From: Aquabacterium sp.
GTDB taxonomy: Bacteria; Pseudomonadota; Gammaproteobacteria; Burkholderiales; Burkholderiaceae_C
NCBI RefSeq assembly: GCF_016195855.1
Contig: NZ_JACPYU010000021.1
Coordinates: 1-64,000 of the forward strand
Direction of reading: 5' to 3'
Length of the DNA stretch: 64,000 nucleotides
Part shown: piece after piece, positions 37,317-61,051 of the stretch
Layout: each line of letters starts with the position of its first letter
How positions within the stretch are numbered: the stretch's first letter is position 1
Position numbers and translations under genes: made by a program
The notes under the pieces: model-generated
The model's input: the letters and a program-made list of their open reading frames with translations, nothing else
Databases searched by the model: none
Told to the model about the DNA's origin: nothing

Positions 37317-37334
37317 GCCAGCCCTGAGCACATC

Positions 37335-37730: not shown

Positions 37731-38173
37731 AGGCCATGCAAGGCAGGCGTGCACAAGGCGGCTTCACCTACCTGATGCTCATCTGGTGGGTGGCGATCTC
37801 GGGTGTGATGCTGGCAGCCCTGGCCGACAACTGGTCGCATGCCATGCGCCGCCAGCGTGAGGCCGAACTGGTGTTTCGGGGTGAACAGATCCGCAAGGCC
37901 ATCGAGGCCTATCACCAGGTGGTCGCACCCGGTGGCGCATCCCAATGGCCCACGCAACTTGAAGACTTGCTGGAAGACCGGCGCGGGCCCGTGGTCATGC
38001 GTCATTTGCGGCGCCTGTGGCCTGATCCCATCACGGGTGAGCGAACCTGGGGGTTGGTCAAAGAGGGTGCAGGCATCAAGGGCGTGTACAGCAATTCACC
38101 CGCCAGGCCTTTGGCTGCGCCCGAAGGGGTGGGGCAGTACAAGCTGTGGCTTTTTGTGGTGTCAAACGGATAA
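37724..38173 (+). CDS. Prepilin-like protein lacking the conserved Glu5
   Basis: 149 residues. The leader ends AQGG, then FTYLMLIWWVAISGVMLAALA. The site Gly-Phe is kept, but mature position 5 is Met instead of Glu, a feature shared with the tip pseudopilin GspK. A long amphipathic helix (HAMRRQREAELVFRGEQIRKAIEAYHQVV) follows, then LWPDPITGERTWGLVKEGAGIKGVYS. It could cap the pseudopilus, although it is much shorter than GspK. It is the last gene of the operon. Confidence 0.75.
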   Translation: MVKAMQGRRAQGGFTYLMLIWWVAISGVMLAALADNWSHAMRRQREAELVFRGEQIRKAIEAYHQVVAPGGASQWPTQLEDLLEDRRGPVVMRHLRRLWPDPITGERTWGLVKEGAGIKGVYSNSPARPLAAPEGVGQYKLWLFVVSNG

Positions 38174-41277: not shown

Positions 41278-41322
41278 ATGTCATGCCCCGCTTCATCCCT
41301 CCGCTTTAACTGGATACCCACT

Positions 41323-42676: not shown

Positions 42677-42730
42677 GCTCTTTTGCACACAGTCCCCACT
42701 TGGGGACTGTTGCTTTGTGTGCAGTCTCAA

Positions 42731-44386: not shown

Positions 44387-47300
44387 ATGAACAAGCACAT
44401 CCACCGTCTGGTTTTTGATCGCAAGCGTGGCATGCGTGTGCCCGCCGCAGAGAGCGTGCGCGCCGCCGGCAAGGCCGCTGGTGGTCAGACCCGTGCCCGC
44501 GCCGTGGCCGGCGTGACCCTGGTGTCCATGGCCTTGAGCGGCGTGGCCGATGCGCGGGATGTGACCCCCTCAACCAACCGCAGCATCGTGGACACCATGA
44601 TGCGCGCCTCGACCTTCAACATCGCGCGCAACACCGGCCCGGTGTGGAGCGCAGCCCGTGATGCTGGCAAGGCCTCGCAGTTCAAGGTCACCAACCCGGA
44701 TGGCCTGACGACGCAGATCGACCAGTACGACAGTCGCGTCATCATCAACTGGGACAGCTTCAATGTGGGCGCCGACTACAGCGTGCTGTTCAACCAGCCC
44801 AAGGGTGGCTCGGCCTACAACCGCATCTGGGATCTCAACCCGACGGTCATCATGGGCAAGATCACCGCCAATGGCGAGGTGATCCTGGAGAACACCCATG
44901 GCGTGATCTTTGGCGCCACCGCGCGCGTGCAGACCGGCCGCTTCGTGACCACGGCCTTGAAGATGACCGAAGAGGCCATCACCAAGGGCCTGCGCGCCAA
45001 CCGCGATGGCCAGGTGATGTTCGGTGGCGATGACGCTGATCCCACTGGCTTCATCACCATCGAGCGTGGTGCCGAAGTCAAGGCCCTGGCTGGGGGCGAT
45101 GTGCTGATGATCGCCCCCAAGGTCTACAACGAAGGCACGATTGAAACCCCCAAGGGTCAGACCGTGCTGGCGGCTGGCCAGAAGGTCTACCTCTACAGCT
45201 CGCTGGACCCGGCACAACGCGGCCTGCTCGTGGCCGTGGACCCGTTCGCATCGGGCCCAGCCGGCGTCAACACCGTTGAAAATGCCGCGGCGGCCGAGTA
45301 CCGCACGGTGGACGGCAAGACGGTAGACAACAGCACGCCAGACAGCACCGCAGGCCTGGCCAAGCAGGTCAACCAGATCGTGGCCGAACAAGGCTCGATT
45401 AACCTGGTGGGCCTGACCGTGCGCAACAACGGCATCCTCACCGCCACCACAGCGGTGAAGGGGCAGAACGGCGCGATCTATTTGCAGGCGCAGAAGACGA
45501 CGACCACGTTCAACGGCACGCCCCTGACAGGCGACAGCGGCGCAGCGCCCCGGATGGCAGCCCAACTCGGCACGGTCGAACTCGGATCGGGCAGCGTGAC
45601 CCAGATCACGCCGTCTACCGCGCAGGTCTACAACGAAGACACCAAGAAATTCGAGGCGCCAACCCAGACCGATGCAGAGACTTTCAACCAGTCGCGTATC
45701 GAGATCAGTGGCGCCAGCATCCGTGTGCAGGGTGGTGCCCAGGTGGTGGCGCCGTACGGCAAGATCAGCCTGCTGGCCAGTGAAGACGCGTCCAAGTCAG
45801 CACTGTTTGGCTTCAACGAAATCGGCAAGGACAACAGCGCCATCGTGATTGAAGACGGTGCGCTCGTCAGCGCCGCGGGCCTGCGCGATGTGCTGCTGCC
45901 CATGAGCCGCAACCAGTTGAACGGGCGCCTCTTTGCTAACGAGCTGGCGGATTCGCCCGTGCAGCGCGGTGGTGTGCTGTACCGCAGCGAGGTCTCAGCC
46001 GATGCGCGCAGCCTGGTCAAGGTGGCCAATGTCAGCGGCTTTTACAACCTGGTTGGCCGCACAGCTGAAGAGATCGCCACCAAGGCGGGTACGGTCAAGA
46101 TCCAGGCGCAAGGCAGCACGGTGGTGGCTGATGGCGCCAAGGTCGACGTGTCGGGCGGCAGCGTGGTCTACCAGGCCGGCACCATCAACAGCAGCCTGCT
46201 GCGCAAGGGCAATACGCTGGTCAAACTTGAAGATGCCCAGGCTGGCGTCAAGTATGACGAGTTGATCTCCGGCACCGGCCGCGGCACATCGGCTCAGCTG
46301 GCCAGTTATGTCGAAGGCAAGGATGGCGGCGAGATCCAGCTGTTCGCGCCGCAGTTCTACATCGGCGAAGGCACGCTCAAGGGCGACGTGGTGGTGGGGC
46401 CGTATCAGCGCGGGGGCCCCATTTCCTCCAGCGTGGACCTGGCCAAGAGGCCGGATCTCTATGCCTCGCTTCGCCCTCTGGGCGCGCGCCTGACGCTGGG
46501 CTTTTCTGAAGATTTGGCGCTCGCCATGGACGGCGTCACGGTGGCTGGGGCGCGCTCCGGCACATTGGGGCCGGTAGCTGGCGTGGACGCGACCGCCGTG
46601 ACGCAACTGGTGAGCGCTTCGTTGATGCGCAACCAGCTCACCACCGACACCTTGAGCAAGGGCGGCTTTGCCGGCCTGTCGGTGTATGCCACTGCGCTCA
46701 ATGTGGCCAAGGACGCGCGTCTGGATCTGGGTCCCACCGGCTCATTCAGCGCCAACAAGGCCAAGCAGATTCAGATCGATGGTCAGATCAAGGCAGCAGG
46801 CGGCAGCGTCAGCCTGAGCGCCATTGGTGATGTGGTGCTGGGTGAAGGTGCGGCGATTGATGTGTCGGGCAGCAAGCTCGATGAACTGGGGCAGGCAACG
46901 GGCACGGTGCCTGTGGATGTCAATGGTGGTGCCGTGGCGCTCAAAGCTGGCGGCTCGGTGCGCCTGAGTGAGCGCAGCCAGATCGACGTCTCTGCCGGCG
47001 CATGGCGAGCCAGCACAGGGGGCATCACCACGGGCAAGGCGGGCTCGCTTGCACTGGAGGCCAATGTTGATCAGACCCAATCTTTGCCGGGCACGGTGGT
47101 GCTCAATGGGCGACTAAGTGGTTATGACTTCCAGTCCGGCGGCAAGCTGAGTATCAAGGGGGCGCCGGGTTTGTCGATCGGGCAAGGCGGCAAGGCTGAT
47201 GACCTGCAACTGACCGCAGCCTTCTTCAGTGACAACGGTTTTGGCAGCTTTGAGCTGAGTTCGCTGGGGGATGTGGACGTGGTGGCCGGCACGGTGCTGA

Positions 47301-50300
47301 CACCTCGATTGAAGAACTACCAGCTTGATGCGGCGCGCGTGGGCTCCGGCAACGGGGCGGCGCTGTTTATCACCACAGAGGTGAACGATGCGCAACGCGC
47401 CCCCGTCAACCTGACGCTCACGGCGATCAAACCGAACCAGGACAACCGCCAGGGCTACAAGGAGGGGGGGCGTGTGCGCATTGGCGCCGGTGCCCAGCTT
47501 GATCTGGGTGCAGGCGGCCGTTTCGCGGCATTGGCAGGGCGCCAGATTGTTCTCGGGCAGGAAGCCAGCATCACGGCACACGGCGGCTCGGTGGCCATGA
47601 CACTGACGGGGCGTCGCGGCAGTAACCAGGCTGAGGACAAGAACTCGGCCGACGTCATCGGTTATGTGGCCGACAACGAGGTCCGCCTGAGCGCCGGCTC
47701 TCGCATTGATGTGTCGGGCGTGGCCAGGACCCAGACACAGGTTGTGAGCGGCCAGGAACGCGTGACCGGTACCGTCTTGGGTGGCGGCACCGTCAGCTTG
47801 AACTACAACCCCACTGATGAAGAAAGTGGCCAGCGTGGACGTGTGATCACGGAAGCAGCCACAGACAAGCTGGCAGCCTCCTTGATCGATGTCAGCGGGC
47901 AGTCGGCGCAATTGAACCTGGGGCGAGGTTCACGCCGCACCACGGTGAGCCAAGGCGCTGGCAGCGTGAAGGTGGGCGGTGCGGACGGGTTCGCGCTCAT
48001 GGGTGACATCCATGCCCAGGCGCCCGACGCTTCGGTGGGCGGCGGTGAGTTCATCGCGTCCGTCAGTCGCGAGGGCAAGAGCGATGCGACTTTCAACCCA
48101 TCGAAGTACCCGAGCGCCGATCGCGTGGTCCGCGTCACGGCCACGCAAAGTGAAGTGGCCACGCATGCAGACGCTTACGGCGAAGGCGTCGTCTCGGCCC
48201 AGCAACTGGCCGATGCCGGCTTTGACCGCATCAGCCTGCGTGCTGATGATCGCGTCGTGCTGGACAAGGGTGCCAGCATTGGCACCAGCGAGGGACAGAA
48301 GCTGCGTGCCATCATCGTGTCGGCACCTGTCTTGAAGGCAGAAGACGGCGGCGCACATGAACTGCGCGCCAGCTATGTGGCGCTGGGTGATGTCAATCTG
48401 GTCAGCAAGTTCGGCACCACGAAGGACAGCCGGCCGGCCTCTGCCGCGGGCAATGCCACGCTGGCGGTGAACGCCGGGCTGATCGAGCTGCACGGCAAGT
48501 CGGCCTTCCAGGGCTGGCAGTCGGTGGACCTCAATGCCACGCTGGACAAGTCCTTTGGTGACACCCGCCGTGATGGCGAGATTCGCTTCATCGGCCGCAC
48601 TTTTGATAACAACAGCACCGACCTGATCGGCTACCTGGGCTTTGATGGCGTGCTGACCCTGCGTGCGGGCCAAAGCTATGCCACCACCTTGTCCAAGGTC
48701 ACGGTGCAGGGCGCATTGGGGCATGCCACGCTGAAAACGGAACAGCCATCCGCTGGCAGTTCCACCAGCGCCACACCGCTGACCGCGCTGGCCTCGCTCA
48801 CCTTGCAGGCTGATGACATCGCGCACAACGGTGTCCTGCGCCAACCCTTTGGCGCCCTGACCCTCAATGCCGTCAACAAGGTCACGCTGGGCGCGGGCAG
48901 CACCCTGTCCGTGTCGGGTGATGGTGTGACGGTGCCGGTGGGCACCACGGTCAACGAGCGCAGCTGGGTGTACACGCCCAACCCTTCTGATTCAACGATC
49001 ACCACGCCCCTGGTGCAAAACCTCGATGGCCTGCCTGTGGCCAAGGGCATCCAGGTCAAGGGCCAGGGCATCAGCCTGAGCAACACGAGCATCGTCCAGG
49101 CACAGGCCGGGGGCGACCTGCAGGCCTGGGAGTTCATCCGGGGCGTGGGCGGCAGCACCGACACGCTCAACCGTGCCAATTTGTTTGCGGTCCTGCCCAA
49201 TTACCAATACGACTTCGCCCCCTACGACACCGAGATCGCCAAGTCGACGGCGCTGAGCGGCACGTCGCTGCAAGCGGGTGACAAGATCACGATCAGCACA
49301 GCCAATGGCGTGCTGGCGAAGGGTACCTATACCTTGCTGCCGTCTCGCTATGCCTTGCTGCCCGGCGCGGTGCTCGTGTCTGCGGCCAACGTGGGCGCGG
49401 GTGGCACATTGAACCAGGCGATCACGCAAGACGATGGCAGCGTGTTCGTGTCGGGCCAACGCACGGCCACCGGCACCAGCACCACGGGTGGCGACCCCCG
49501 CCAGACTTTCATGCTGGAGTCGGCGGCCACCTTCCGCGCCAAATCGGCGTATGCGCTGACCTCCATCAACAGCCTGCTCACCGATCGCGCCGTGCAGCTG
49601 GACACCTTGCTGCCCAGCCTGGCCGGTGACGCCGGGCGCGTGTCGCTGGAGGCCAAGGGTGCCTTCGACCTGCTGGGTCAGTTCAACCTGGCCGGCAAAG
49701 GCAGCCTGGCGGCCGGCCAGCTTGACGTCGTCATGCCCTCGATGACCGTGGCCGACGATGGCGACACCCAGGTGCAGATTGAGGCAGGTTCTGCCCGTGT
49801 CTCGGCCCAGTCGCTCAACGGCACGCATGCCGGCAGCATCATGCTCGGCGGCGTGCGCACCGGGACGGTAGAAGGCGCCACGGCGACGGTGTCGTCCAGC
49901 CAGGTGCGCCTGGCCAGCAGCAGCTTGTCTGCAGGCGAAGTGATCGCGGTGGCCACGGACACGGTCACCGTGGACGACGGCGTCAAGTTGACAGCCGAAG
50001 GGGCGGTGGGCAATAAGGCCAACCAGCTCACCATCAAGGGCCAGGGTGCTGCCGTGGTGGTCAGCCAGAACAGCAACACCGACATCCGGCGCGACCTGAG
50101 CGGCGTGACGGTGAACAAGGGCACGCTGAACATCGGGCAGGCCACGCTGTCGGGCCAGGCCGTTCAACTGGACGCCTCGCAGAGCCTGAACCTCAACGCC
50201 CATGCCACCATCAACAGCAAACTGTTTGGCTTGGGCGCGCCGCGCATCGTGGTGGGTGGTGCGGCTGACACGGCTGGCGCGGTGGCGCTGGACGGCGTCT

Positions 50301-53300
50301 TGCTGAACTCGCTCAAGGGTGCAGACAGCATGCAGCTTCGCAGCTACAGCAGCATCGACTTCAAGGGTGCGTTGGCTTTTGATGCGCGTGGTGCAGACGG
50401 CAAGCCCGTCTTGCGCAAGGTGGTGCTCGATGCGCCCCAGCTGCGCGGCCTGGGCCAAAGCGCTGACACGGTCAGCGTGACGGCGCAAAGCGTCATCTTG
50501 CGCAACACATCCGGCATTGTGCCGTCGGCCACCGAAACCGGCACCTCGGCGCTGGCCATCCAGGCCGAGCCGGTGCTGTCTGACAAGGTCACGGGTGGCA
50601 TCACCATTGGCGAAGGTGCGCAGCGCCTGGCCTTCGCCAACAGCACGCTGACATCCAAGGGCGACATCGTGTTCGACGGCAAGGGCCAGCTGGGTGTGCA
50701 GGGTGACGTCACGCTGGCTGCGGCCCGTGTGACCGCCACCAGCACGGCTGACCACGGTGTGGACAGTGCGGCCACCTTGACCATCACCTCGGCCGCCAAC
50801 GCCCGCACGCTCAATGAACGCGTGGGGGCAGGCGGTGCCTTGACCCTGAGCGGTGAGCGCGTGGTGCAGGACGGCGTGGTGGACGTGGCCTCCGGCAAGA
50901 TCAACATCATCGGCAAGGGCAACACCACACAGCGGCGCGACACCGTGACGCTGACCGAGCGCTCGGTCACCAAGGCCGCGGGCTGGACGCAACAAGCGGG
51001 CAAGAGCTGGTCGGTCGATGCGCCTGGCGGTGATGTCACCGTGCAGGCGGTGCAGGGCGACCTGATCTGGCGTGGCCAGATCGACGTGTCGGCCCCGGTG
51101 GCCAGCACCAAGCCCGAGCAAGGCCAGGCCGCTGGCACCGTGACGCTGCTGGCCAATGGTTTCAACCCGACCGATGGCTACCGTGGCCAGCTGGTGGTGG
51201 GCACCAACGCCAGCCTCAAGGGCAGCGCGGGCAGCGACCGCTTGTCTGCCAGCTTGAGCGTTGACGCGCAGCGCCTGAGCAACGAGCAAACCCCAGGCTT
51301 GTCTGACGCTGCACAGGCCGCAGCCATCACGCATGGCACGCTGGACCGCCTGGCCGAGATCACCAAGGCCGGTGGCGTACGCCGAGAAGTGGACTGGCGC
51401 ATCCGCGAAGGTGCGCAATCGCTCAACACGGAACTGACCGCGCAACGCGTGTTCATCAGCGCTGACGCTGGCAGCCTGCAGCTGGGGCAAAGCCAGACGC
51501 TGCTGGCCAACGGCCAGCTGGCAACGCACACCGGCACCATCGATGCCCGCGCGCCTCAAGGTGGCGTGGTGCAACTGGCGGCGGGGCAAGACCTGATCAT
51601 CGGCGCGAACGTCCTAGCCGATTCGTCGCGTGTGGGCGCCAATGGTGGCGACATCCTGCTCGCCTCAGCCGAGGGCCAGGTGCGCATCCAGGATGGCGTG
51701 ACCTTGTCTGCCGGTGGCGACGATGAGCAGGATGGCCGCGTGGTCATTCGTGCGCTGCGCACCGACGACGGCAACTTGCCTGACGAGTTGCGTGTCAACG
51801 TGGACGCCATCGGCCCTAACACCAAGGTCAAGGCCGGTGAGTTCACCGTGGAAGCCGTGCGTGTCTACACCGGTACCAAGCTGACCACGGGCGCCAGCAC
51901 GGGCACCACGCTGGGCCAGCTCAGCCTGATGGCCGACAACGATGACTTCATGGTCAGCAAGGACAGCATTGCCAGCGCTATGGGGTTGGGCCGTTTTGCC
52001 AACGCCCACCTGCGCTCCGGCGTCGAAATTCAATCCAGCGGCAACTTCGAGGTCAGCAAGGACTGGAACCTGTGGAGCGAAGAGCGCGCAGGTGGCGAGC
52101 CCTTGAACCTCACCATCCGCGCAGCGGGTGACCTCAACATCAAGGGCAGCCTCAGTGATGGTTTTGCCACCGCCACGCGCATCGGCACGGGCGACAGCCT
52201 GCCCACCGAAGTCAAGGCCGGGCCGGCTGCGTCCTTCCGCCTGGTGGCGGGGGCAGACCTGTCTGCGGCCAATGTGCTCAAGACAGACGCCAAGACCAGC
52301 AATGGCAACCTGCGCATCGATGGCGGCAAGATGGTCCGCACGACCAGTGGCTCGATCGAACTGGCGGCCGCCAAGGACATCGAGCTCAAGGCCGGCACAG
52401 GTGCCTCACCTGTCCAGGCGGTGGTGTATGTGGCTGGGCAACGTGCCGAGTTGCCAGCGGGGCAGTCTTACACCGCACCCAATGACTGGGCGCAGTTCAC
52501 AAACCATGGCGGGCGTGTGTCGCTGGCTGCGGGCGGCAACATCGTGGCGCCTGCGGCGGCGCAGTTGATCAACAACTGGTTCCAGCACGCGGGTGAAAGC
52601 GAGATCACCGGCGGTTCCTGGTACAGCTTCTTTGACAGCTTCAAGCAGGGTGTGGGCTCATTCGGCGGCGGCAACATCGATGTACGCGCCGGCCAGTCGA
52701 TCAACAACCTCGGCGTGGTGGCACCCACCTCCATGAGGCAGGTGACGGATGACGTCACCGCCGAGCGCACGCAGGTGGTGGACAACGGGGGCGACATCCA
52801 TGTGCATGCGGGCCAGGACATCAAGGGCGGCGTGTACTTCCTGGGGCGTGGCGACGCGCTGATTCAGGCAGGGGGCGCCATCACCAAGGGTGACAGCCTC
52901 AAGTCCGGGGTGCCGCAAGTTGGCGCCGTGGTCGGGCTGATGGATGGTCATGTGGCCTTGCAGGCGACCAAGGGCGCCACCATCGCAGCGGTATACAACC
53001 CGACGGCCTTGCCCTCATCCAACCGAACGGGCGACCTTGGGGGAAGCTATTTCACCTATGGCGCTGATGCGGGCGTATCGATCACCAGCACGTCCGGCGA
53101 CGTGAACTGGACCCCTGAAGGTGACGGATTCAAGGACTACCTGAATCAACTCAACAAGATCGCTGGCCAGGATCAATTGCCCACGCAATATGTGACCAAC
53201 TATCCCTTGACGATGATCGCGCCACCATCACTGGCGGTGTCCGCGCTGTCGGGCGACGTGGTGTTCAGTACACCCGTCACCAACATGGTCATGACGCTCT

Positions 53301-55267
53301 TTCCCTCATCGCAAGGTCAGCTTGATCTGTTTGCCGGTCGCGATCTGAAGATGAACGCCAGGTTGGTCATGGCCGATGGCGATCCCAGTCTGTGGCCCAC
53401 CTTGAGCACCGCAGTGGACGCGTCTCAGTCGGACTCGGCGTGGGCGACCAACTTCCTCAAAGCCTTCCAGAGCTACCGCGTGGGTGGGATGGCTGTTTTG
53501 ACTGCACCGGGTAGCGGCTTGCCCTCGTCCACCTTGCATCAGAACGACGCTACTGTGGCCCACATCCATGCGGAACGGGACATTGGGGGAGCGGCGACGG
53601 GTTTCACGGGTACGTCCTTCAATTTGCCAAAAGCCGCTGAGATCACAGCGGGGCGGGACATCATCGGGCTAACCTATGTGGGGCAGCAATACCACGATGG
53701 CGACGTGACACGCATCGAAGCGGGGCGCAATATCCTGGGCAAGAACACAGGTTCGTTCACGGCCGGGCTCGGAGGTTCGTCGGGCTTGATTGCCCTGGCC
53801 GGCCCAGGCGAGCTGCAAGTCAAGGCGGGCCGCCAGCTTGATCTGGGCGACGCTGGCGGCGTGCGCACAGTGGGCAACAAGTACAACACCGAGCTGTCGG
53901 CGGACTCTGCCAAGATCACGCTCGCAGCCGGCATGGCCAAGACGCTGGATGCGGATACCTTCGTGCAGCGCTTCTTGCCTGCCGGTGACGCAGCCCGTGC
54001 CGATCTGGTGGTCTATGTGCAGCAGGTGCTCAAATTGAGCGATGCCGACTTGCCTGCCGATCCTGCAGCGGCCTATGAGCAGGCGTTGAGTTACTACAAG
54101 GCCTTCACGCGTGAGCATCAGCTTGCCTTCGCGGATGCCGTGGTCAACAAGGCCTTCATCCAGGCCTACCTGGCCAGCGGCAGTGACTATGCCCTGGCAT
54201 GGCAAGCCAAGGCGAAGGGCATGGGCGTGTCCGACACCGCCTATGACAGCACCGCCTTTGCCCAATTCAAGGCCGATGTGGTCATGAACGAGCTCAAGGT
54301 CTGGGGCAAGGCGGCGGCCGATGTGGCGCTGTCGCTGGACCCGGCTGCCAATGCGCTGGCCAATGCCCAACGCCAGGCGCTGTACGACAAGGCTTTTGCC
54401 GCCATCGATCTGGCTGGCCTGGGCAAGGGCTTCCACTTCGTGGGCGACATCCAGATTGCCGGCAGTGGCGTGCAGACGCAGGGCAAGGGCGACCTGAACA
54501 CCGGTGGCATCGACATCTTCGCGCCAGGTGGCGGTGTGCTGGTGGGGCTCAATGCCTTGACGAAGGCGCAGCAGGATCAAGCCAAGGACCACGGCTTGGT
54601 CACCTACGGCGGCGGCAGCATCCGCGCCATGTCCGCGGGTGACTTCCTGGTCAACGCCCAGAAGACCTTTGTGGTGGGCAATGGCGACATCATGCTGTGG
54701 TCGTCCTACGGCAGCCTGGACGCCGGCCGTGGCGCCAACACCGACGTGACCGTGCCGCCGCCTGTGGCCGTGCGCAACGCCGATGGCAGCGTGAGCTTCG
54801 AGTTGCCGCCCCTCACCACGGGCAGTGGCATCGGCCGGCTCACGTCTTCGGAAGGTGCGTCGCAGGGGCAGGTCTACCTGAACGCACCCAACGGTGAGAT
54901 CCGCGCACTGGATGCGCAGATCCGCAACGAGGGCGGCGGTCAGATCAACATCGGTGCCCAGGTGGTCAAGGGCGGCGACAACATCGCCGGCAAGGTCAAC
55001 GGCGCGCCGCCTGCGGTCTCCGTCAACGTAGCCATCAACGTCAACACCAGTGTGCCCAGCCAGACCGCAGCCGGTGCGCAAGCCGCAGCCAGCAGCCAGG
55101 ATGGCAAGCCCAAGGACCCCGCCTCCGTGGTGACGGTGGACCTGCTGGGCATGGGTGACGACGCCAACGCGCCCGCTGCCGGCAACACCGCGCCAGCGGC
55201 CGGCACCGAGGCCTGCGAAGACGATGACAAGAAGAAGGACAAGGCCAAAGCCTGCACCAAGCGCTGA
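44387..55267 (+). CDS. Giant TpsA exoprotein, filamentous-haemagglutinin family
   Basis: 3,626 residues. The N-terminus is an extended signal peptide (MNKHIHRLVFDRKRGMRVPAAE, then a hydrophobic core ending SGVADA). The TPS domain follows, with FNQPKGGSAYNRI and NGEVILENTHGVIFGA; the usual NPNGI has become NTHGV. The body is a long beta-helix of degenerate repeats with many VDVSGG/IDVSG units. A region from about residue 2,900 (LTYVGQQYHDGDVTRIEAGRN, GPGELQVKAGRQLDLGDAGG) fits DUF3739, which is known from TPS proteins linked to VreARI-type signalling. The extreme C-terminus is acidic/basic with two Cys (CEDDDKKKDKAKACTKR). It is predicted to be a surface adhesin or biofilm protein. Confidence 0.9.
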   Translation: MNKHIHRLVFDRKRGMRVPAAESVRAAGKAAGGQTRARAVAGVTLVSMALSGVADARDVTPSTNRSIVDTMMRASTFNIARNTGPVWSAARDAGKASQFKVTNPDGLTTQIDQYDSRVIINWDSFNVGADYSVLFNQPKGGSAYNRIWDLNPTVIMGKITANGEVILENTHGVIFGATARVQTGRFVTTALKMTEEAITKGLRANRDGQVMFGGDDADPTGFITIERGAEVKALAGGDVLMIAPKVYNEGTIETPKGQTVLAAGQKVYLYSSLDPAQRGLLVAVDPFASGPAGVNTVENAAAAEYRTVDGKTVDNSTPDSTAGLAKQVNQIVAEQGSINLVGLTVRNNGILTATTAVKGQNGAIYLQAQKTTTTFNGTPLTGDSGAAPRMAAQLGTVELGSGSVTQITPSTAQVYNEDTKKFEAPTQTDAETFNQSRIEISGASIRVQGGAQVVAPYGKISLLASEDASKSALFGFNEIGKDNSAIVIEDGALVSAAGLRDVLLPMSRNQLNGRLFANELADSPVQRGGVLYRSEVSADARSLVKVANVSGFYNLVGRTAEEIATKAGTVKIQAQGSTVVADGAKVDVSGGSVVYQAGTINSSLLRKGNTLVKLEDAQAGVKYDELISGTGRGTSAQLASYVEGKDGGEIQLFAPQFYIGEGTLKGDVVVGPYQRGGPISSSVDLAKRPDLYASLRPLGARLTLGFSEDLALAMDGVTVAGARSGTLGPVAGVDATAVTQLVSASLMRNQLTTDTLSKGGFAGLSVYATALNVAKDARLDLGPTGSFSANKAKQIQIDGQIKAAGGSVSLSAIGDVVLGEGAAIDVSGSKLDELGQATGTVPVDVNGGAVALKAGGSVRLSERSQIDVSAGAWRASTGGITTGKAGSLALEANVDQTQSLPGTVVLNGRLSGYDFQSGGKLSIKGAPGLSIGQGGKADDLQLTAAFFSDNGFGSFELSSLGDVDVVAGTVLTPRLKNYQLDAARVGSGNGAALFITTEVNDAQRAPVNLTLTAIKPNQDNRQGYKEGGRVRIGAGAQLDLGAGGRFAALAGRQIVLGQEASITAHGGSVAMTLTGRRGSNQAEDKNSADVIGYVADNEVRLSAGSRIDVSGVARTQTQVVSGQERVTGTVLGGGTVSLNYNPTDEESGQRGRVITEAATDKLAASLIDVSGQSAQLNLGRGSRRTTVSQGAGSVKVGGADGFALMGDIHAQAPDASVGGGEFIASVSREGKSDATFNPSKYPSADRVVRVTATQSEVATHADAYGEGVVSAQQLADAGFDRISLRADDRVVLDKGASIGTSEGQKLRAIIVSAPVLKAEDGGAHELRASYVALGDVNLVSKFGTTKDSRPASAAGNATLAVNAGLIELHGKSAFQGWQSVDLNATLDKSFGDTRRDGEIRFIGRTFDNNSTDLIGYLGFDGVLTLRAGQSYATTLSKVTVQGALGHATLKTEQPSAGSSTSATPLTALASLTLQADDIAHNGVLRQPFGALTLNAVNKVTLGAGSTLSVSGDGVTVPVGTTVNERSWVYTPNPSDSTITTPLVQNLDGLPVAKGIQVKGQGISLSNTSIVQAQAGGDLQAWEFIRGVGGSTDTLNRANLFAVLPNYQYDFAPYDTEIAKSTALSGTSLQAGDKITISTANGVLAKGTYTLLPSRYALLPGAVLVSAANVGAGGTLNQAITQDDGSVFVSGQRTATGTSTTGGDPRQTFMLESAATFRAKSAYALTSINSLLTDRAVQLDTLLPSLAGDAGRVSLEAKGAFDLLGQFNLAGKGSLAAGQLDVVMPSMTVADDGDTQVQIEAGSARVSAQSLNGTHAGSIMLGGVRTGTVEGATATVSSSQVRLASSSLSAGEVIAVATDTVTVDDGVKLTAEGAVGNKANQLTIKGQGAAVVVSQNSNTDIRRDLSGVTVNKGTLNIGQATLSGQAVQLDASQSLNLNAHATINSKLFGLGAPRIVVGGAADTAGAVALDGVLLNSLKGADSMQLRSYSSIDFKGALAFDARGADGKPVLRKVVLDAPQLRGLGQSADTVSVTAQSVILRNTSGIVPSATETGTSALAIQAEPVLSDKVTGGITIGEGAQRLAFANSTLTSKGDIVFDGKGQLGVQGDVTLAAARVTATSTADHGVDSAATLTITSAANARTLNERVGAGGALTLSGERVVQDGVVDVASGKINIIGKGNTTQRRDTVTLTERSVTKAAGWTQQAGKSWSVDAPGGDVTVQAVQGDLIWRGQIDVSAPVASTKPEQGQAAGTVTLLANGFNPTDGYRGQLVVGTNASLKGSAGSDRLSASLSVDAQRLSNEQTPGLSDAAQAAAITHGTLDRLAEITKAGGVRREVDWRIREGAQSLNTELTAQRVFISADAGSLQLGQSQTLLANGQLATHTGTIDARAPQGGVVQLAAGQDLIIGANVLADSSRVGANGGDILLASAEGQVRIQDGVTLSAGGDDEQDGRVVIRALRTDDGNLPDELRVNVDAIGPNTKVKAGEFTVEAVRVYTGTKLTTGASTGTTLGQLSLMADNDDFMVSKDSIASAMGLGRFANAHLRSGVEIQSSGNFEVSKDWNLWSEERAGGEPLNLTIRAAGDLNIKGSLSDGFATATRIGTGDSLPTEVKAGPAASFRLVAGADLSAANVLKTDAKTSNGNLRIDGGKMVRTTSGSIELAAAKDIELKAGTGASPVQAVVYVAGQRAELPAGQSYTAPNDWAQFTNHGGRVSLAAGGNIVAPAAAQLINNWFQHAGESEITGGSWYSFFDSFKQGVGSFGGGNIDVRAGQSINNLGVVAPTSMRQVTDDVTAERTQVVDNGGDIHVHAGQDIKGGVYFLGRGDALIQAGGAITKGDSLKSGVPQVGAVVGLMDGHVALQATKGATIAAVYNPTALPSSNRTGDLGGSYFTYGADAGVSITSTSGDVNWTPEGDGFKDYLNQLNKIAGQDQLPTQYVTNYPLTMIAPPSLAVSALSGDVVFSTPVTNMVMTLFPSSQGQLDLFAGRDLKMNARLVMADGDPSLWPTLSTAVDASQSDSAWATNFLKAFQSYRVGGMAVLTAPGSGLPSSTLHQNDATVAHIHAERDIGGAATGFTGTSFNLPKAAEITAGRDIIGLTYVGQQYHDGDVTRIEAGRNILGKNTGSFTAGLGGSSGLIALAGPGELQVKAGRQLDLGDAGGVRTVGNKYNTELSADSAKITLAAGMAKTLDADTFVQRFLPAGDAARADLVVYVQQVLKLSDADLPADPAAAYEQALSYYKAFTREHQLAFADAVVNKAFIQAYLASGSDYALAWQAKAKGMGVSDTAYDSTAFAQFKADVVMNELKVWGKAAADVALSLDPAANALANAQRQALYDKAFAAIDLAGLGKGFHFVGDIQIAGSGVQTQGKGDLNTGGIDIFAPGGGVLVGLNALTKAQQDQAKDHGLVTYGGGSIRAMSAGDFLVNAQKTFVVGNGDIMLWSSYGSLDAGRGANTDVTVPPPVAVRNADGSVSFELPPLTTGSGIGRLTSSEGASQGQVYLNAPNGEIRALDAQIRNEGGGQINIGAQVVKGGDNIAGKVNGAPPAVSVNVAINVNTSVPSQTAAGAQAAASSQDGKPKDPASVVTVDLLGMGDDANAPAAGNTAPAAGTEACEDDDKKKDKAKACTKR

Positions 55268-55436: not shown

Positions 55437-57143
55437 ATGAACACTGTCAGATCCTTGATGCTGGGTGCAGCCCTGATGGGCGGCCTCTTCTCCACCTCTG
55501 CCCACGCCTGGTGGAACGGCGACTGGAAGGCCCGGGCCAAGATCACCTTGAACACCACGGCGCAAGGCGTGGAGACCAAGGAAGCCCTGTCGGGCGTGGT
55601 GGTGCCTGTGCGCCTGCATTCCGGCAACTTCGACTTCCTGTCGGCCAAGCCCGATGGTGCAGACCTGCGTGTGGTCGCCGCTGACGACAAGACCCCGTTG
55701 AAATACTGGGTCGAGCGTTTTGATGGCACGAACGAGCTGGCCGTGATCTGGGTGCAGGTGCCCAGCGTGGCGCCTGGCACCGACAAGAACGTCGTGTACG
55801 TCTACGCTGGCAATGACAAGGCCACAGCCGAGCAGACCTCGACCGCTGTGTACGACGGCAGCATGAGCGCCGCCTTCTCGTTTGCGGGCAAGGATGGCGC
55901 TGTCGCCCAGGATGCGGTCAACCAGATTGCCAGCGCTGCCCCTGTGGCCCGCGAGATCAATGGCCTGATCGGCCCGGCCGCCAAGCTCGATGGCCAGCAA
56001 GCTATCGTGATCCCCGCAGCGGACAAGCTCAAGGCCTCGGCCTCCGGCCCTTACACGGTCAGCCTGTGGATCAAGCCCGTGACGCTCACCGGCACGGTCT
56101 TCCAGCAAGGCCCCCTGTCGCTGACCCTGAACGCAGGCAAGCTGCAAGCCAGCCTGGGCAAGCTGCAAGCCGCTGGCGGTGAACTGCCCGCTTCGGCCTG
56201 GGCCCATGTGGCCGTGGTCGTGGGCAACAGCAAGCTCAGCCTGTACCTCAATGGCGAGCAAGCCGCGCAGGCTGACCTGGCCGCCTCGACCACGCCCATC
56301 GAAGGCGAGATCAGCCTGGGCCAAGGCCTGGCAGCGCAAATCGACGAGCTGGAAGTCGCCAGCACCGCGCGCAGTGGCGACTGGCTGAAATTGGCCCGCG
56401 CCGCGCAAAGCGCTGACGCCAAGCTGGTGGCCGGCATCAGCCAGACACCGGACACCGCCAAGGACGGCGGCGGCGAGCCGGGCTACTTCGGCATCCTGGT
56501 GGGCAACCTCACCGTGGACGCCTGGGTGGTGATCGGCATCCTGGGTGTGATGTTCGCCGTGGCCGCATGGGTCATGTATGCCAAGGCCGTGTTCGTGGGC
56601 CGTGCCGACAAGGCCAACCGTGCTTTCCTGCAGCGCTTTCGCGGTGCGCGCGACGTGATGCAGATCGAGGCCAAGGCCCTCAAGCACTCGTCATTGCAGC
56701 GTCTGTACGAAGCCGGCCTGCGCGAGTTGACCAAGCGCGATGTGGGCAAGGCGGGTTCCAACCCCTTGTCGGGCGCTTCGATCGACGCCGTCAAGGCCGC
56801 CATCGACGCCGACCTGGTCCGTGAGAGCCACGAGCTGAACTCCAAGATGGTGCTGCTGACCATCGCCATCTCCGGCGGCCCGTTCCTGGGCCTGCTGGGC
56901 ACCGTGGTGGGCGTGATGATCACCTTCGCGGCCATTGCCGCGGCGGGCGACGTCAACGTCAATGCCATCGCTCCCGGCATCGCGGCGGCCCTGTTGGCCA
57001 CGGTGGCGGGCCTGGGCGTGGCCATCCCTGCGCTGTTTGGCTACAACTACCTGGCAGCGCGCATCAAGAACATCTCGTCGGACATGCAGATCTTCGTCGA
57101 TGAGTTCGTGACGCGCGTGGCCGAAACCTACGGCGCTCGCTGA
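55437..57143 (+). CDS. DUF2341/LamG-like periplasmic domain fused to an ExbB/TolQ/MotA proton channel
   Basis: 568 residues. A signal peptide (MNTVRSLMLGAALMGGLFSTSAHA) is followed by WWNGDWKARAKITLNT, the start of a DUF2341-type domain (to about residue 135). A LamG/concanavalin-like domain runs to about 340 (PYTVSLWIKPVTLTGTVFQQG, SAWAHVAVVVGNSKLSLYLNGEQ). Next come TM1 (DAWVVIGILGVMFAVAAWVMY, near 361), a cytoplasmic part and the ExbB core with TM2 (SGGPFLGLLGTVVGVMITFA, near 478) and TM3 (IAAALLATVAGLGVAIPALFG, near 515). Membrane topology fits ExbB, with the extra domains in the periplasm. An exbD pair follows after 13 bases. Confidence 0.88.
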   Translation: MNTVRSLMLGAALMGGLFSTSAHAWWNGDWKARAKITLNTTAQGVETKEALSGVVVPVRLHSGNFDFLSAKPDGADLRVVAADDKTPLKYWVERFDGTNELAVIWVQVPSVAPGTDKNVVYVYAGNDKATAEQTSTAVYDGSMSAAFSFAGKDGAVAQDAVNQIASAAPVAREINGLIGPAAKLDGQQAIVIPAADKLKASASGPYTVSLWIKPVTLTGTVFQQGPLSLTLNAGKLQASLGKLQAAGGELPASAWAHVAVVVGNSKLSLYLNGEQAAQADLAASTTPIEGEISLGQGLAAQIDELEVASTARSGDWLKLARAAQSADAKLVAGISQTPDTAKDGGGEPGYFGILVGNLTVDAWVVIGILGVMFAVAAWVMYAKAVFVGRADKANRAFLQRFRGARDVMQIEAKALKHSSLQRLYEAGLRELTKRDVGKAGSNPLSGASIDAVKAAIDADLVRESHELNSKMVLLTIAISGGPFLGLLGTVVGVMITFAAIAAAGDVNVNAIAPGIAAALLATVAGLGVAIPALFGYNYLAARIKNISSDMQIFVDEFVTRVAETYGAR

Positions 57144-57156
57144 ACAGGGGCAAGCC

Positions 57157-57564
57157 ATGGCCGGCGACGTCAAAGCGGATAACCAGCCTTACGACGACAT
57201 CAACATCACCCCGATGTTGGACCTCGCGTACGTGTTGCTGGTGACGTTCATCATCATGACCACGGCCTCCGTGCAGGGCGTGAAGGTCCAGCCGCCCTTG
57301 ACCCAGGCCACCAACAACCTGGCCAAGCCGCAAACGCGTGGCATCACGATCACCGCCGATGGCCAGGTCTATCTGGATGCCTACCCTGTGAGCCTGGACC
57401 AGCTCCAGTCCTCGCTGGCGCAGTACAAGGCCGCCAACCCGGCCTTGCCTGTGGTGCTCAAGGCCGATGCGGCCACGCAATACGACAAGGTCATGGCTGT
57501 GCTGGAGATCGCCAAGAAGCTCGACATCACCGAGATCGGCCTGGCGACCAAGCGCCTGCAATAA
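57157..57564 (+). CDS. ExbD/TolR-family protein (first copy)
   Basis: 135 residues. Short cytoplasmic start, then TPMLDLAYVLLVTFIIMTTA with the essential membrane Asp near residue 22. A periplasmic domain follows (GITITADGQVYLDAYPVSLDQLQSSLAQY, VVLKADAATQYDKVMAVLEIAKKLDITEIGLAT). It works with ExbB to convert the proton gradient into conformational work on TonB. It is translationally close to both neighbours (13 and 14 base gaps). Confidence 0.92.
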   Translation: MAGDVKADNQPYDDINITPMLDLAYVLLVTFIIMTTASVQGVKVQPPLTQATNNLAKPQTRGITITADGQVYLDAYPVSLDQLQSSLAQYKAANPALPVVLKADAATQYDKVMAVLEIAKKLDITEIGLATKRLQ

Positions 57565-57578
57565 AGGCGGAACACCCC

Positions 57579-57980
57579 ATGCAAGTTCAAGACGACGCCA
57601 AACCCTACGACACCATCAACGTCACGCCCATGCTGGACCTGGCGTACGTGCTGCTCGTGGTGTTCATCCTGATGACGACCGCTTCGGTGCAAGGCCTGAG
57701 CGTCAACATGCCCAAGCCCAGCAACAAGCCCAGCACCGAGAAGCACCCCCTCAAGGTGGTGCAGGTGCTGCCTGAGGGCACGCTGGCCCTCAATGGCGTG
57801 CCTGTGAGCCTGGCTGAGCTGGAGACGCGTCTGCAGCAAGCCAAGGCCGAGGACGCCAAGATGAGCGTGGCCATCAAGGGTGACGCGCGCACGCAGTACG
57901 CCAAGGTTGTGGCCGTCATCGACCTGTGCAACAAGCTGGAAGTGTCGATGGGGCTGGTCACAGCCCGCATCGGCACGTGA
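57579..57980 (+). CDS. ExbD/TolR-family protein (second, divergent copy)
   Basis: 133 residues. Same layout as the first: TPMLDLAYVLLVVFILMTTASVQG in the membrane with the conserved Asp, then a periplasmic domain (LPEGTLALNGVPVSLAELETRL). The N-terminal two-thirds resembles the first copy strongly in the membrane segment and weakly after it. This suggests an old duplication rather than a recent one. Two ExbD proteins may form a heterodimer in the channel pore. Confidence 0.92.
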   Translation: MQVQDDAKPYDTINVTPMLDLAYVLLVVFILMTTASVQGLSVNMPKPSNKPSTEKHPLKVVQVLPEGTLALNGVPVSLAELETRLQQAKAEDAKMSVAIKGDARTQYAKVVAVIDLCNKLEVSMGLVTARIGT

Positions 57981-57989
57981 GGAGCAGGC

Positions 57990-58676
57990 ATGGCTGTGGC
58001 CGATGACCTTCAGGACGACGACGGTGCAGGCTGGGGTAGCAAGCTCGCCTTGCTGGGCGCATTGCTCGCGCTGGCAGGCTTGATCTATTGGGCCGTGAGC
58101 GCATTCCATTCGGGCGCCAGCGGCCCCAAGCGCCAGACCGTGAAGATCGCGGTCCTGCCTGACACGCCGCCCCCACCGCCCCCGCCTCCGCAGGAAAAAA
58201 AGCCCGAGCCCGAGATCAAGGAGCAAAAGCCCCAGCCCCAGCAGGAAGAGCAAAAGCCGCTGGACAAGGCGCCCGAGCCCGAGCAACTCAAGATGGAGGG
58301 CGCAGCCGGCGATGGCCCCAGCGCCTTCTCTGCCGGTGCCGTGAACAACGACTACCAGAAGGGCGAGATCGGCACAGGGCAGGGCGGTGGCGACCGCTTG
58401 CAGGAGGCCCTGTTCGGTCGCCGCCTGCAAAAGCACATCCAGCTGGCACTGGCGCGTGACAAGTCCATCAAGCTGGGTGACTACCGCGTCAAGGTCAGCG
58501 TCTGGCTGGACGAGCACGGCGTGATCCAGCGCGTGCAGCTCGACGCCCCGACTGGCGACGACAAGATCGATCAGGCCTTGCGCGATTCGTTCGCGCGCCT
58601 GCCTCCCGTTTCCGACATGCCAGCAGGCATCCGCCAGCCGGTGCGGCTGGGCATCTCCAACCGCATGACCGGTTGA
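57990..58676 (+). CDS. TonB-family energy transducer
   Basis: 228 residues. An acidic cytoplasmic start, one anchor (SKLALLGALLALAGLIYWAVS), a Pro/Glu/Lys/Gln-rich rigid linker at about residues 55-100 (DTPPPPPPPPQEKKPEPE) and a C-terminal TonB fold (YRVKVSVWLDEHGVIQRVQLDAPTGDDKIDQAL). It completes an ExbB-ExbD-ExbD-TonB set. Its outer-membrane partner is unknown; no TonB-dependent receptor is in the window. It starts 9 bases after the second ExbD gene. Confidence 0.9.
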   Translation: MAVADDLQDDDGAGWGSKLALLGALLALAGLIYWAVSAFHSGASGPKRQTVKIAVLPDTPPPPPPPPQEKKPEPEIKEQKPQPQQEEQKPLDKAPEPEQLKMEGAAGDGPSAFSAGAVNNDYQKGEIGTGQGGGDRLQEALFGRRLQKHIQLALARDKSIKLGDYRVKVSVWLDEHGVIQRVQLDAPTGDDKIDQALRDSFARLPPVSDMPAGIRQPVRLGISNRMTG

Positions 58677-58692
58677 CCCTTGAAGTGAAGCT

Positions 58693-60393
58693 ATGAAACC
58701 CTTGAACACAAGCTGGTGGCCGAAGCTGACCACCCTGAGCCTGGCCCTGAGTCTGGCCATGAATGCCGGCCTGGCCCATGCAGACGAACGCGAATCACTC
58801 GAAGCCCTGCGTCAGACCACGCTGGGCCTGATCAACGCCCTGGTGGACAAGGGCGTGCTCAGCCGTGATGCGGCTGATGCCATGCTCAAGCAGGCGCAGG
58901 CCAAACAGTCGGCACCTGCACAGGCTGCAGCGGCGACACCGGCCACCCCCACGGCCGATGCCAAGCCCGTGCAGCGCATCCCTTATGTGTCAGACGCCAT
59001 GAAGGCGCAGATCCGCAACGAGGTCAAGGAAGAGGTGCTCACGCAGGCCCGCGCCGAGCGCTGGGGCGTGCCCAATGCCTCGCCGGCCTGGGTGGACCGC
59101 ATCAAGGTTGATGGCGACTTCCGCTTCCGCTATCAGGCTGACCACGCTGGCAACAGCAACACGCCGGCCTACAACTACCTGGCCAGTGAAGACCTCAACG
59201 ACGGCATCATCCGTTCTGCTGATTTCGCCAGTTACCTGGCGGGCAACTCGGGCGTGGCCACGGGCTCGACCACCGACAACCGCAACCGCGAGCGCATCCG
59301 CTTGCGCCTGGGCATCACCGCCAAGGTGTCCGACGAGGTGGGCGTGGGCGTGCGCCTGGCCACGGGCAGCACAACGGACCGTGTCTCCACCAACCAGACC
59401 CTGGGCCAGGGCTTCAACAAATACCCCTTGCTGGTGGACCGCGCCTTCGTGCGTTTGACCCCGGTTGAAGGCGTGGACGTGCTGGCAGGCCGTTTCCCCA
59501 ACCCCTGGTTCAGCACCGACATGGTCTGGAGCGAGAACCTCAACTTCGAAGGCCTGGCCACCACCGCCCGCTGGGAACAGCCTGAAGCCACCTTCGTGCC
59601 TTTTGCCACGGTGGGTGCTTTCCCCTTGCGCGAAGAGTCGCCCCCCACCCGTGGTGGTCGCTGGTTGTATGGCGCGCAGGCCGGTGCCAGCTGGGTGCCT
59701 GCCGAGCGCACCAGGTTGAAGTTCGGCCTGGCCTACTACCAGTACAAGAACCTGGCAGGCCGCCAGGACCAGGACTACACCGTGTCGGGCAGCACCTTCT
59801 CGCCCGGCGCCACCTATGGCCAGTACGAATACGCCGCGGGCCTGCGCCAGAAGGGCAACACCCTGTTCGAGACCAACCCGGCATCGCCATCCAACCTGGC
59901 GCCGGTGTGGGGCCTGGCCTACCAGTTCAAGCCGCTTGTGCTGACCGCCTCGGCCGAGTTCACGCACTTCAGCCCCTACAGCCTGCTGCTGTCGACCGAG
60001 TTCGTGAAGAACACCGCCTTTGATGCCGCTGACTTCAAGCGCCGCTCGGGCCTGAACGTCGAGCCTGGTGGCAAGGACAAGGGCTACCAGCTCAAGGCCG
60101 CGTTTGGCGCCGCCGAGGTGCGTGACCCGGGCCAATGGCAAGCAGCCGTGTCCTACCGCTACCTGGGCTCGGACGCCGTGCTGGACGCCTTCAATGACAG
60201 CGACCTTGGTCTGGGCGGCACCAATGTGCAGGGCTACACCCTGGGCGTCACGTATGGCCTGTACCGCAATACCAACCTGGGCCTGCGTTACCTGTCCTCG
60301 CGCACCATCGATTCGCCCATCAATGACCAGTTCGAACCCAATGCGCGATACCGCGTGAACTCTGTGCAGGTGGACCTCAATGTGCGCTTCTGA
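58693..60393 (+). CDS. Putative outer-membrane porin
   Basis: 566 residues. A signal peptide (LTTLSLALSLAMNAGLAHA) is followed by a coiled-coil-prone segment (ERESLEALRQTTLGLINALVDKGVLSRDAADAML) and an Ala/Pro linker. A beta-barrel follows from about residue 135 (VDGDFRFRYQADHAG, RERIRLRLGITAKVSDEVGVGVRLATG), with the C-terminal strand ending in Phe (VQVDLNVRF). This matches the Porin_5-type putative porin family. Its position next to TonB suggests it may be the energised partner, which would be unusual for a porin. Confidence 0.88.
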   Translation: MKPLNTSWWPKLTTLSLALSLAMNAGLAHADERESLEALRQTTLGLINALVDKGVLSRDAADAMLKQAQAKQSAPAQAAAATPATPTADAKPVQRIPYVSDAMKAQIRNEVKEEVLTQARAERWGVPNASPAWVDRIKVDGDFRFRYQADHAGNSNTPAYNYLASEDLNDGIIRSADFASYLAGNSGVATGSTTDNRNRERIRLRLGITAKVSDEVGVGVRLATGSTTDRVSTNQTLGQGFNKYPLLVDRAFVRLTPVEGVDVLAGRFPNPWFSTDMVWSENLNFEGLATTARWEQPEATFVPFATVGAFPLREESPPTRGGRWLYGAQAGASWVPAERTRLKFGLAYYQYKNLAGRQDQDYTVSGSTFSPGATYGQYEYAAGLRQKGNTLFETNPASPSNLAPVWGLAYQFKPLVLTASAEFTHFSPYSLLLSTEFVKNTAFDAADFKRRSGLNVEPGGKDKGYQLKAAFGAAEVRDPGQWQAAVSYRYLGSDAVLDAFNDSDLGLGGTNVQGYTLGVTYGLYRNTNLGLRYLSSRTIDSPINDQFEPNARYRVNSVQVDLNVRF

Positions 60394-61051
60394 CAAACAG
60401 GCCCGCCAGGCGCGCTGGCGCCCGGTGATGGCCGCGATGCTGGCCGTGTTCATGGCCACGCATGCCTGGGCCGATTCGGGTGAGCGCGAGCAGGAGCAAC
60501 TGCGCCGCCTCAAGCTGCAGCTACGCCAACAGCAGCAAGAGAAAGACGCCGCCGTGCAGGACGCCCAGGCCAAGGCCAGCGCCGACAAGGCTGCCATGGC
60601 CGCGACCTTGCAATCCGCGCAAGGCGACGCGCAAGCCCAGCGGCGCGCCGCCAGCGCGGCCAGCCGCCGTGCGCAGACGCTCGAGGCCGAGGTGAGCACG
60701 CTCAAGCAGGACAAGGAGCAGCTCGCCCAGCAAGTGGCCCAACTGCAAAAGGCACTGGATGACAGCAAGGCGCAGTCGACCAAACAAGGTCAGCAGGCCG
60801 CCGCGACCCTGGCGTCCACCCAAGCGAGCCTCAAAAACGTGAGCGATCAGCATGACCAGTGCCGCACGCAGAACGCGGCCCTGTACGAGCTGGGCAGCGA
60901 CTTGTTGGCTCGCTACGAGCACAAAGGCCTGGGCGACATCCTGGCCAGCAAGGAGCCCTTCATCCAGACCGCCCGCGTCACGCTGGAGAACACCAAGGCC
61001 CAGTACCAGGACAAGCTGGACGCTGCCCGCCTGAAGGTGGCTGCGCCCTGA
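60380..61051 (+). CDS. Periplasmic coiled-coil protein
   Basis: 223 residues. ATG 60380 overlaps the porin stop by 14 bases; an in-frame ATG at 60428 would put the signal peptide (MAAMLAVFMATHAWA) first. The mature protein is almost entirely a predicted coiled coil (EREQEQLRRLKLQLRQQQQ, LKQDKEQLAQQVAQLQKAL), then a short C-terminal domain with one Cys (HDQCRTQNAALYELGSDLLARYEHKGLGDIL). It is the last gene of the ExbB-TonB-porin set. It might span the periplasm between inner and outer membrane; no enzymatic motif is seen. Confidence 0.82.
   Translation: MCASDKQARQARWRPVMAAMLAVFMATHAWADSGEREQEQLRRLKLQLRQQQQEKDAAVQDAQAKASADKAAMAATLQSAQGDAQAQRRAASAASRRAQTLEAEVSTLKQDKEQLAQQVAQLQKALDDSKAQSTKQGQQAAATLASTQASLKNVSDQHDQCRTQNAALYELGSDLLARYEHKGLGDILASKEPFIQTARVTLENTKAQYQDKLDAARLKVAAP

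Follow-up and report, generated by a model that had tools for sequence, protein, structure and literature searches.

A Tol-like motor, porin and coiled-coil module that accompanies a DUF3739-bearing subclass of two-partner secretion and may act late in export

Why should a set of genes of the ExbB-ExbD-TonB kind, which are known for energising outer-membrane receptors, lie directly behind a two-partner secretion (TPS) pair? This question is raised by a stretch of 64,000 nucleotides (hereafter the window) from the 4.9-Mb genome of an Aquabacterium sp. (contig NZ_JACPYU010000021.1), in which six co-directed genes within 55437-61051 (+) follow the genes for the outer-membrane exporter TpsB and the giant exoprotein TpsA. 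In the usual description, TPS is the simplest of the export routes and has no energy source dedicated to it. Here, we report that the six genes almost certainly form a conserved, dedicated module with one subclass of TPS systems, and we consider whether the encoded motor may take part in export. The close spacing of the six genes and the TpsB/TpsA pair upstream, as described in an earlier note on this DNA, were both found as reported, and the main features are these:

42683..44356 (first ATG 42731), + strand: TpsB outer-membrane exporter, with POTRA_2 and ShlB; falls in the linked TpsB clade (E 2e-179)
44387..55267, + strand: TpsA giant exoprotein of 3,626 residues, with ESPR, TPS domain and DUF3739
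54683..55006, + strand: DUF3739 domain of TpsA, residues 3433-3540 (85 bits, cut-off 27)
55127..55159, + strand: conserved strand VVTVDLLGMGD near the TpsA C-terminus, with a strand of this kind in 53 of 62 module tails; candidate docking peptide
55437..57143, + strand: fusion ExbB, with signal peptide (by eye), DUF2341, LamG and TolQ/ExbB core; three Pfam domains above cut-off
56985..56987, + strand: codon of Ala517 in the third membrane helix of the fusion ExbB, aligned with a Glu of TolQ and of E. coli ExbB
57157..57564, + strand: ExbD/TolR-like protein 1 (PF02472, 92 bits; membrane Asp kept)
57579..57980, + strand: ExbD/TolR-like protein 2 (PF02472, 83 bits; membrane Asp kept)
57990..58676, + strand: TolA/TonB-like arm, with one membrane helix, Pro-rich spacer and an end domain that looks TolA-III-like (residues 128-228)
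58693..60393, + strand: Porin_5 outer-membrane barrel with N-terminal helical part
60380..61051, + strand: coiled-coil protein with signal peptide (by eye) and conserved C-terminal part; no Pfam family; 68 of 80 loci have a relative at the corresponding position

The module genes are separated by gaps of 9-16 bp, with one 14-bp overlap, and the spacing from TpsA to the fusion ExbB is 169 bp. A scan of the TpsA-ExbB region gave 7 terminator-like sites against 5.4 expected, and no promoter; we make no transcription-unit claim from it.

To follow the module across genomes, we used an even sample of the class that comprises 369 genomes, the source genome among them. Here, the fusion ExbB was found in 22 genomes (E up to 1e-35), full-length Porin_5 in 24 (E 5e-140 or better; next match 2e-34), DUF3739 in 23 and the TpsB clade in 21, this clade being defined by a profile of 20 module TpsBs with a clean gap between its members (E 4e-154 or better) and other TpsBs (E 3e-95 or weaker). 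Because the clade was defined from linked copies, its share of the co-occurrence is partly built in, while Porin_5 and DUF3739 are outside models. The union of the four families amounts to 24 genomes, 19 of them having all four, and at these thresholds none of the four was detected in the other 345. Within the 24, ExbB is missing from G141 and G240, TpsB from G110, G144 and G261, and DUF3739 from G144; these genomes are 64-85% complete except for G141 (99%), whose TpsA meets a contig end. Pairwise Fisher values for the four families lie between 1e-26 and 1e-35, with kinship ignored. ExbB and TpsB occur together in 19 genomes, and by their coordinates they share a contig and lie within about 30 kb of each other in 18 of these, G350 having them on two contigs. 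Nearer the source, a query with the fusion ExbB found it in 22 of 24 genomes of the same genus and in 3 of 16 others of the order, and in a sample of 41 relatives the TpsB clade (E below 1e-130) accompanied 25 of 26 fusion-bearing genomes vs none of 15 fusion-free ones; the sole fusion-bearing genome without it, G014, is 53% complete.

The gene neighbourhoods were then compared in 80 named loci, which are the best of at least 575 confirmed relatives (in at least 581 stretches from species genomes) and hence the closest. These come from Alpha-, Beta- and Gammaproteobacteria, with five titled as Verrucomicrobia or allied and one as an Anaeromyxobacter metagenome-assembled genome, though many are such assemblies and some of their titles may err; Roseateles saccharophilus DSM 654 and Methylophilus sp. 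42 are among the carriers. An ExbD was found in all 80 (two copies in 28), the TolA-like arm in 77, Porin_5 in 74, the coiled-coil gene in 68 and a TpsA or TpsB sequence in 75, the TPS counts resting on N- and C-terminal profiles; in L102 and L118, where porin and TPS genes are present, the coiled-coil gene was not detected. TpsB itself lies inside the stretch in 32 loci, and in another 34 it is 10.3-18.9 kb upstream on the same strand, with contig identity taken from the coordinates. Among the remaining 14, 13 end at a contig edge on the side where TpsB is expected, the fourteenth being L121. Aside from the order in the window (TpsB-TpsA-motor), we observed TpsB-motor-TpsA, TpsA-TpsB-motor, motor-TpsB-TpsA and, in L145, a divergent arrangement. 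Of the TpsB places, 34 fall outside the clade, and 20 of these served as controls (L155-L174), four of them from module-carrying genomes (two from G131 and one each from G253 and G159); none had a fusion ExbB, ExbD, TolA-like arm, Porin_5 or coiled-coil gene (E up to 1e-3). The protein distances of TpsB, ExbB, arm and Porin_5 are correlated as well, with r of 0.84-0.93 over 40 loci and no value as high in 1000 permutations; nine loci (cousins, split stretches and one-genome repeats) had been set aside before this comparison, and part of the correlation comes from shared species history. The earlier note had predicted a wide linkage to TpsA/TpsB, and since this linkage reaches far outside close relatives, in the 369 genomes as in the named loci, co-occurrence is not confined to them.

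Could the module nonetheless be an ordinary TonB uptake system? None of the 13 TonB-dependent receptors of the source genome is on the contig of the window, and in the 100 loci L055-L154, a partly dependent set (L152 is on the L093 contig, and L143/L144, L146/L147 and L148/L149 are one genome each), a receptor was detected only in L142, some 6 kb past the porin. The receptor profile behind these counts was built from 10 open reading frames of the source genome, one of which (L178) is probably on the wrong strand. The earlier remark that no receptor was in sight thus holds well beyond this locus. On C10 of the source genome, on the other hand, two receptors flank an ordinary ExbB-like gene, as would be the case for an uptake system. 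The arm scores below the cut-off with both TonB models tried (TonB_2 of Pfam, 20.9 bits vs 22; TIGR01352 of NCBIfam, 21.9 vs 27.1), and a fold search with its predicted model placed the end domain nearest to TolA-III, with TonB scoring lower. Because of this seemingly TolA-like end domain, the subthreshold TonB scores and the missing receptors, we dropped the ordinary uptake system as a candidate.

The fusion ExbB consists of DUF2341, Laminin_G_3 and MotA_ExbB by Pfam, the last at 99 bits (cut-off 22.9), and TolQ is its nearest relative in both NCBIfam and PDB searches, with the NCBIfam score under the cut-off. For both ExbDs, TolR is the nearest NCBIfam model, again under the cut-off, although the best PDB match of the first is ExbD, and the membrane Asp that is a feature of the ExbD/TolR family is kept in both. 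The likeness to the Tol system lies in these nearest matches, whereas the subthreshold scores, the DUF2341-LamG head and the lack of the TolQ Glu set the module apart, and neither TolB nor Pal was found by Pfam among the six module genes or the two that follow. With ExbB-ExbD-TonB it shares the superfamily, a Pro-rich arm and the ExbD Asp, and it differs in having no receptor at 99 of 100 loci, in its TonB_2 score and in its end-domain fold. The label ExbB-ExbD-ExbD-TonB given in the earlier note is a loose one: the ExbB is a three-domain fusion that looks nearer to TolQ, and the end domain of the arm looks nearer to the TolA fold.

The porin matches Porin_5 (PF16930) over positions 2-535 of 535 with 512 bits, above the cut-off, and its predicted model shows helices followed by a barrel. 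In the Pfam scan, it has neither a plug domain nor an S-layer or OmpA-type anchoring domain. By fold, the closest match is the attachment porin OmpM1 of Veillonella parvula, at 16% identity and over the barrel only (model residues 115-566), so that the first 114 residues of the porin lie outside it. Both fold models (arm and porin) were searched whole, low-confidence parts included, and the absence of other families from their match lists is uninformative. As for the coiled-coil gene, no Pfam family match was obtained.

The secretion partners are recognisable as such. TpsB has POTRA_2 (58 bits), ShlB (49 bits) and Omp85 (31 bits), all over cut-off, and the first 1000 residues of TpsA contain a TPS domain (76 bits) and ESPR (34 bits), much as in FHA-type (type Vb) two-partner secretion. 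The difference from that type lies in DUF3739, a near-constant TpsA length, and the dedicated motor, porin and coiled coil, which the 20 other TpsB loci lack. Complete module TpsAs (n = 10, that of the window included) measure 3,422-3,626 residues, one more closed frame, from the split TpsA of L061, has 2,270, and 20 of 23 DUF3739 frames in the class sample fall within 3,399-3,636 (the rest being 4,193, 1,470 and 334), vs 1,080-2,668 residues for 12 control TpsAs with closed frames. We also noticed that module TpsAs end in a flexible linker rich in Ala, Ser, Gly and Thr, followed by a short VEVLGFG-like strand and sometimes a short tail. A loose pattern for this strand, composed after some tails had been inspected, occurs in 53 of 62 module tails (repeats of one genome included) vs none of 12 control tails, shuffled module tails giving a mean of 5.4 and a maximum of 12 of 62; a strict pattern occurs in 39 of 62 and, again, in none of 12. 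Partners of TonB and TolA are usually gripped via tethered strand-adding peptides, and the TpsA end strand is for this reason a natural docking candidate for the motor arm. Two other ideas on these proteins were rejected: a disulfide hook at the TpsA end is not general, because only 15 of the 53 strand-bearing tails have at least two Cys beyond the strand, and loss of the N-terminal plug helix of TpsB did not serve as a clade mark, as a rough script gave overlapping ranges (41 module vs 18 control TpsBs).

A similar arrangement has been listed for Pseudomonas aeruginosa, with tpsA (PA0690), tpsB (PA0692), exbB2/exbD2 (PA0693/PA0694) and a tonB homologue, PA0695 (Llamas 2009, PMC2729926), which confirms what the earlier note had said of exbB and exbD genes beside a TPS pair in this species. 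The cluster, to which PA0696, PA0697 and the PpiC-type PA0699 belong as well, lies beside the Hxc type II secretion system (T2SS) and alkaline phosphatase and is one Vre-regulated (VreI) regulon (PMC2729926). By these gene descriptions, PA0690-PA0699 resembles the module in its TpsA, TpsB, ExbB, ExbD and TonB homologue and in two signal-peptide proteins, PA0696 and PA0697, which would correspond to the porin and the coiled-coil protein, and PpiC, T2SS and Vre genes are near. Among our named loci, with 10-kb flanks covered, ECF-like and FecR-like genes are each found upstream in 7 of 80, with Pfam support where tested (ECF in L092; FecR in L092 and L132; STN in L092 and L113). Upstream of TpsB in L092, L101, L113, L118 and L132, genes for an ECF sigma factor, FecR and an STN plus TolA/TonB-type protein form a VreI-VreR-VreA-like set (Pfam on some), and downstream in nine loci (L104, L105, L106, L110, L111, L116, L117, L124 and L126) there is a PpiC-like group, the L104 copy being a PpiC-type prolyl isomerase like PA0699. 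Because these accessory types recur at module loci, the P. aeruginosa locus is very likely a member of the same system. Calling the system poorly described, as the earlier note did, is fair, but homologues of TPS, ExbBD and PA0696 were already reported in print in 2009 to accompany PUMA3 in several other genomes (PMC2729926). To that description, our analysis adds how widely the module occurs, the shared occurrence of four families, the control loci, the head of DUF2341 and LamG on the ExbB, the likeness of the arm end to TolA and of the porin to OmpM, and the conserved strand at the end of TpsA.

What, then, might the motor do? As the families suggest, an ExbB pentamer would surround an ExbD dimer, so that the motor would carry a periplasmic crown of five LamG heads, and the TolA-like arm would span the periplasm to an outer-membrane partner. 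More tentatively, the arm might grip the C-terminal tail of TpsA, which is the last part to pass the exporter, or the helices at the foot of the porin barrel, or both, and by pulling it could control the final export step, i.e., fibre release, retention or tensioning, while bulk export through TpsB may still run without such energy. A dedicated proton-powered trans-envelope motor of the Tol/Ton type would thus serve one TPS subclass, with a fibre of nearly fixed length (about 3,400-3,630 residues) and DUF3739 near its end. That a Tol-type proton motor works on the fibre, or on its partners in the outer membrane, in the late part of export falls, in our judgement, just short of being probable. 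The fuller picture, in which the whole DUF3739 subclass is proton-powered and the motor, crowned by five lectin-type heads, grips the TpsA strand and pulls, tensions, moves or releases the fibre, is somewhat less likely than not. To our knowledge, no TPS pathway with an inner-membrane engine of its own is known so far, and this one would be the first. In one bacterial subgroup, an export route regarded as energy-free may be actively driven, and since nearly every sampled genome with this TPS subclass has the motor too, TPS energisation becomes testable by single-gene deletion. The module also brings DUF2341, DUF3739, Porin_5 and a coiled-coil family that has no name together in a single system, and it offers a possible function for the genes next to the TPS pair of P. 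aeruginosa.

In favour of late-export action are the overlap of the four families, the linkage across several gene orders, the empty controls and the distance correlation, along with the retained ExbD Asp, the TolA-like arm end, the TpsA end strand and the near-total lack of receptors. Several points weigh against it. A Glu in the third membrane helix is essential in ExbB, and this site is Ala, Ser or Gly in 98 of the 98 fusion ExbBs where it could be located, so the motor may not work like TolQ/ExbB. Other TPS systems do without such a module, and the motor is thus not needed for TPS in general. Cousin motors are found without porin or TPS pair of their own (L138, L150 and one in L147), from which it follows that the motor core is usable elsewhere, and L121 has ExbB, ExbD and arm while porin, coiled-coil and TPS genes are absent within 4.3 kb upstream and 10 kb downstream of its ExbB. 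Contacts of the motor with TpsA, TpsB or the porin are hypothetical, and both the partly built-in TpsB share and the late-composed strand pattern count on this side as well. Lastly, P. aeruginosa insertion mutants in tpsA, tpsB, PA0695 and PA0696 retained VreI-induced virulence in zebrafish embryos (PMC2729926), a result that is uninformative on export.

Uptake, anchoring and fibre movement are live rivals. In an energised nutrient uptake, the fibre or T2SS enzymes would capture or free a substrate, Porin_5 would import it and the TolA-like arm would drive its gating or passage; each of the 24 genomes in which at least one of the four parts was found has the porin, T2SS genes lie at 29-37 kb of the window, and the P. 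aeruginosa counterparts adjoin Hxc and alkaline phosphatase (PMC2729926). We regard this as unlikely, given a barrel with preceding helices and no plug domain by Pfam, 99 of 100 loci without a receptor, and a giant fibre of constant length that uptake alone leaves unexplained. Alternatively, porin and motor could act as a strut of the Tol-Pal or OmpM kind and steady the outer membrane where the giant fibre drags on it, the proton force being used for placement rather than secretion. OmpM carries an S-layer-type anchor, whereas the present porin has no such domain or OmpA-type one by Pfam and matches OmpM1 in the barrel only, and anchoring is accordingly quite doubtful. In gliding Flavobacteria, the SprB adhesin is moved by the GldLM motor, and, by analogy, a 5:2 motor could move the surface fibre here. 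A proton motor of this superfamily does adjoin a giant surface protein of constant length, with no receptor, but the TolA-like arm argues for pulling or binding, and movement of this kind would seem improbable.

Two further explanations have less in their favour than the preceding three. The motor could serve cell-surface signalling through VreA-like proteins (STN with a TolA/TonB-type end), an ECF sigma factor and FecR, and so report the state of fibre or envelope. The ECF-like and FecR-like genes described above, with their Pfam support, and the VreI regulation of the P. aeruginosa genes (PMC2729926) would fit; such genes were not detected in the other named loci (10-kb flanks), nor by Pfam among the window genes tested, and we consider signalling very improbable. 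Equally hard to credit is a mere operon neighbourhood, in which the genes travel together by shared regulation without sharing a machine: they are one regulon in P. aeruginosa (PMC2729926), but the nearly identical distribution of the four families (24 of 369 genomes), the variety of gene orders and the absence of the module from all 20 control TpsB loci argue otherwise.

Besides these genes, two more in the window recur near modules and may be accessories:

39089..39961, + strand: ankyrin-repeat protein with signal peptide (by eye), possible accessory (Ank repeats)
41278..42621, + strand: protein of 447 residues, possible accessory exoprotein upstream of TpsB (no Pfam match)

The coiled-coil gene has a relative of the ankyrin protein as neighbour in 8 further loci (one contig accounts for two of these), and relatives of the 447-residue protein lie beside TpsB or the module in seven distinct places (L069, L072, L139, L143/L144, L145, L146/L147 and L148). 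Directly upstream of the latter and TpsB is a PEP-CTERM protein (window 40360-41247), and elsewhere a gene related to it was seen beside the module only as a weak match, in L080. Further upstream of the TPS genes is a type II secretion-like cluster (GspF, GspE, secretin; window 28788-38173), in a position like that of Hxc in P. aeruginosa, and homologues of this cluster flank the module in L061, L062 and L094. The two genes after the module encode DUF1840 and histidine-phosphatase family proteins (Pfam) and appear unrelated.

Among the cousin motors, the fusion-ExbB/ExbD/TolA-like sets at L138:1605-11804 and L150:1-8142, in genomes of different families, adjoin genes for V-type ATPase subunits. 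The second such set in L147 (7447-15891) follows secretin, GspE-, GspF- and DsbC-like genes resembling a type II secretion operon, and beside these secretion genes (15910-16551, - strand) is a protein of 214 residues with a TPS domain (38 bits, cut-off 33.5), which is far short of a usual TpsA. Small proteins that are almost purely a TolA/TonB-type end domain occur near the module in two copies each in L097, L101 and L104, and small end-domain proteins of this type also lie downstream of it in L092, L105, L106, L110 and L112. Lastly, related membrane proteins are encoded downstream in L074, L075, L076, L079, L080, L082 and L131, the L074 copy matching an Rce1-like CAAX protease.

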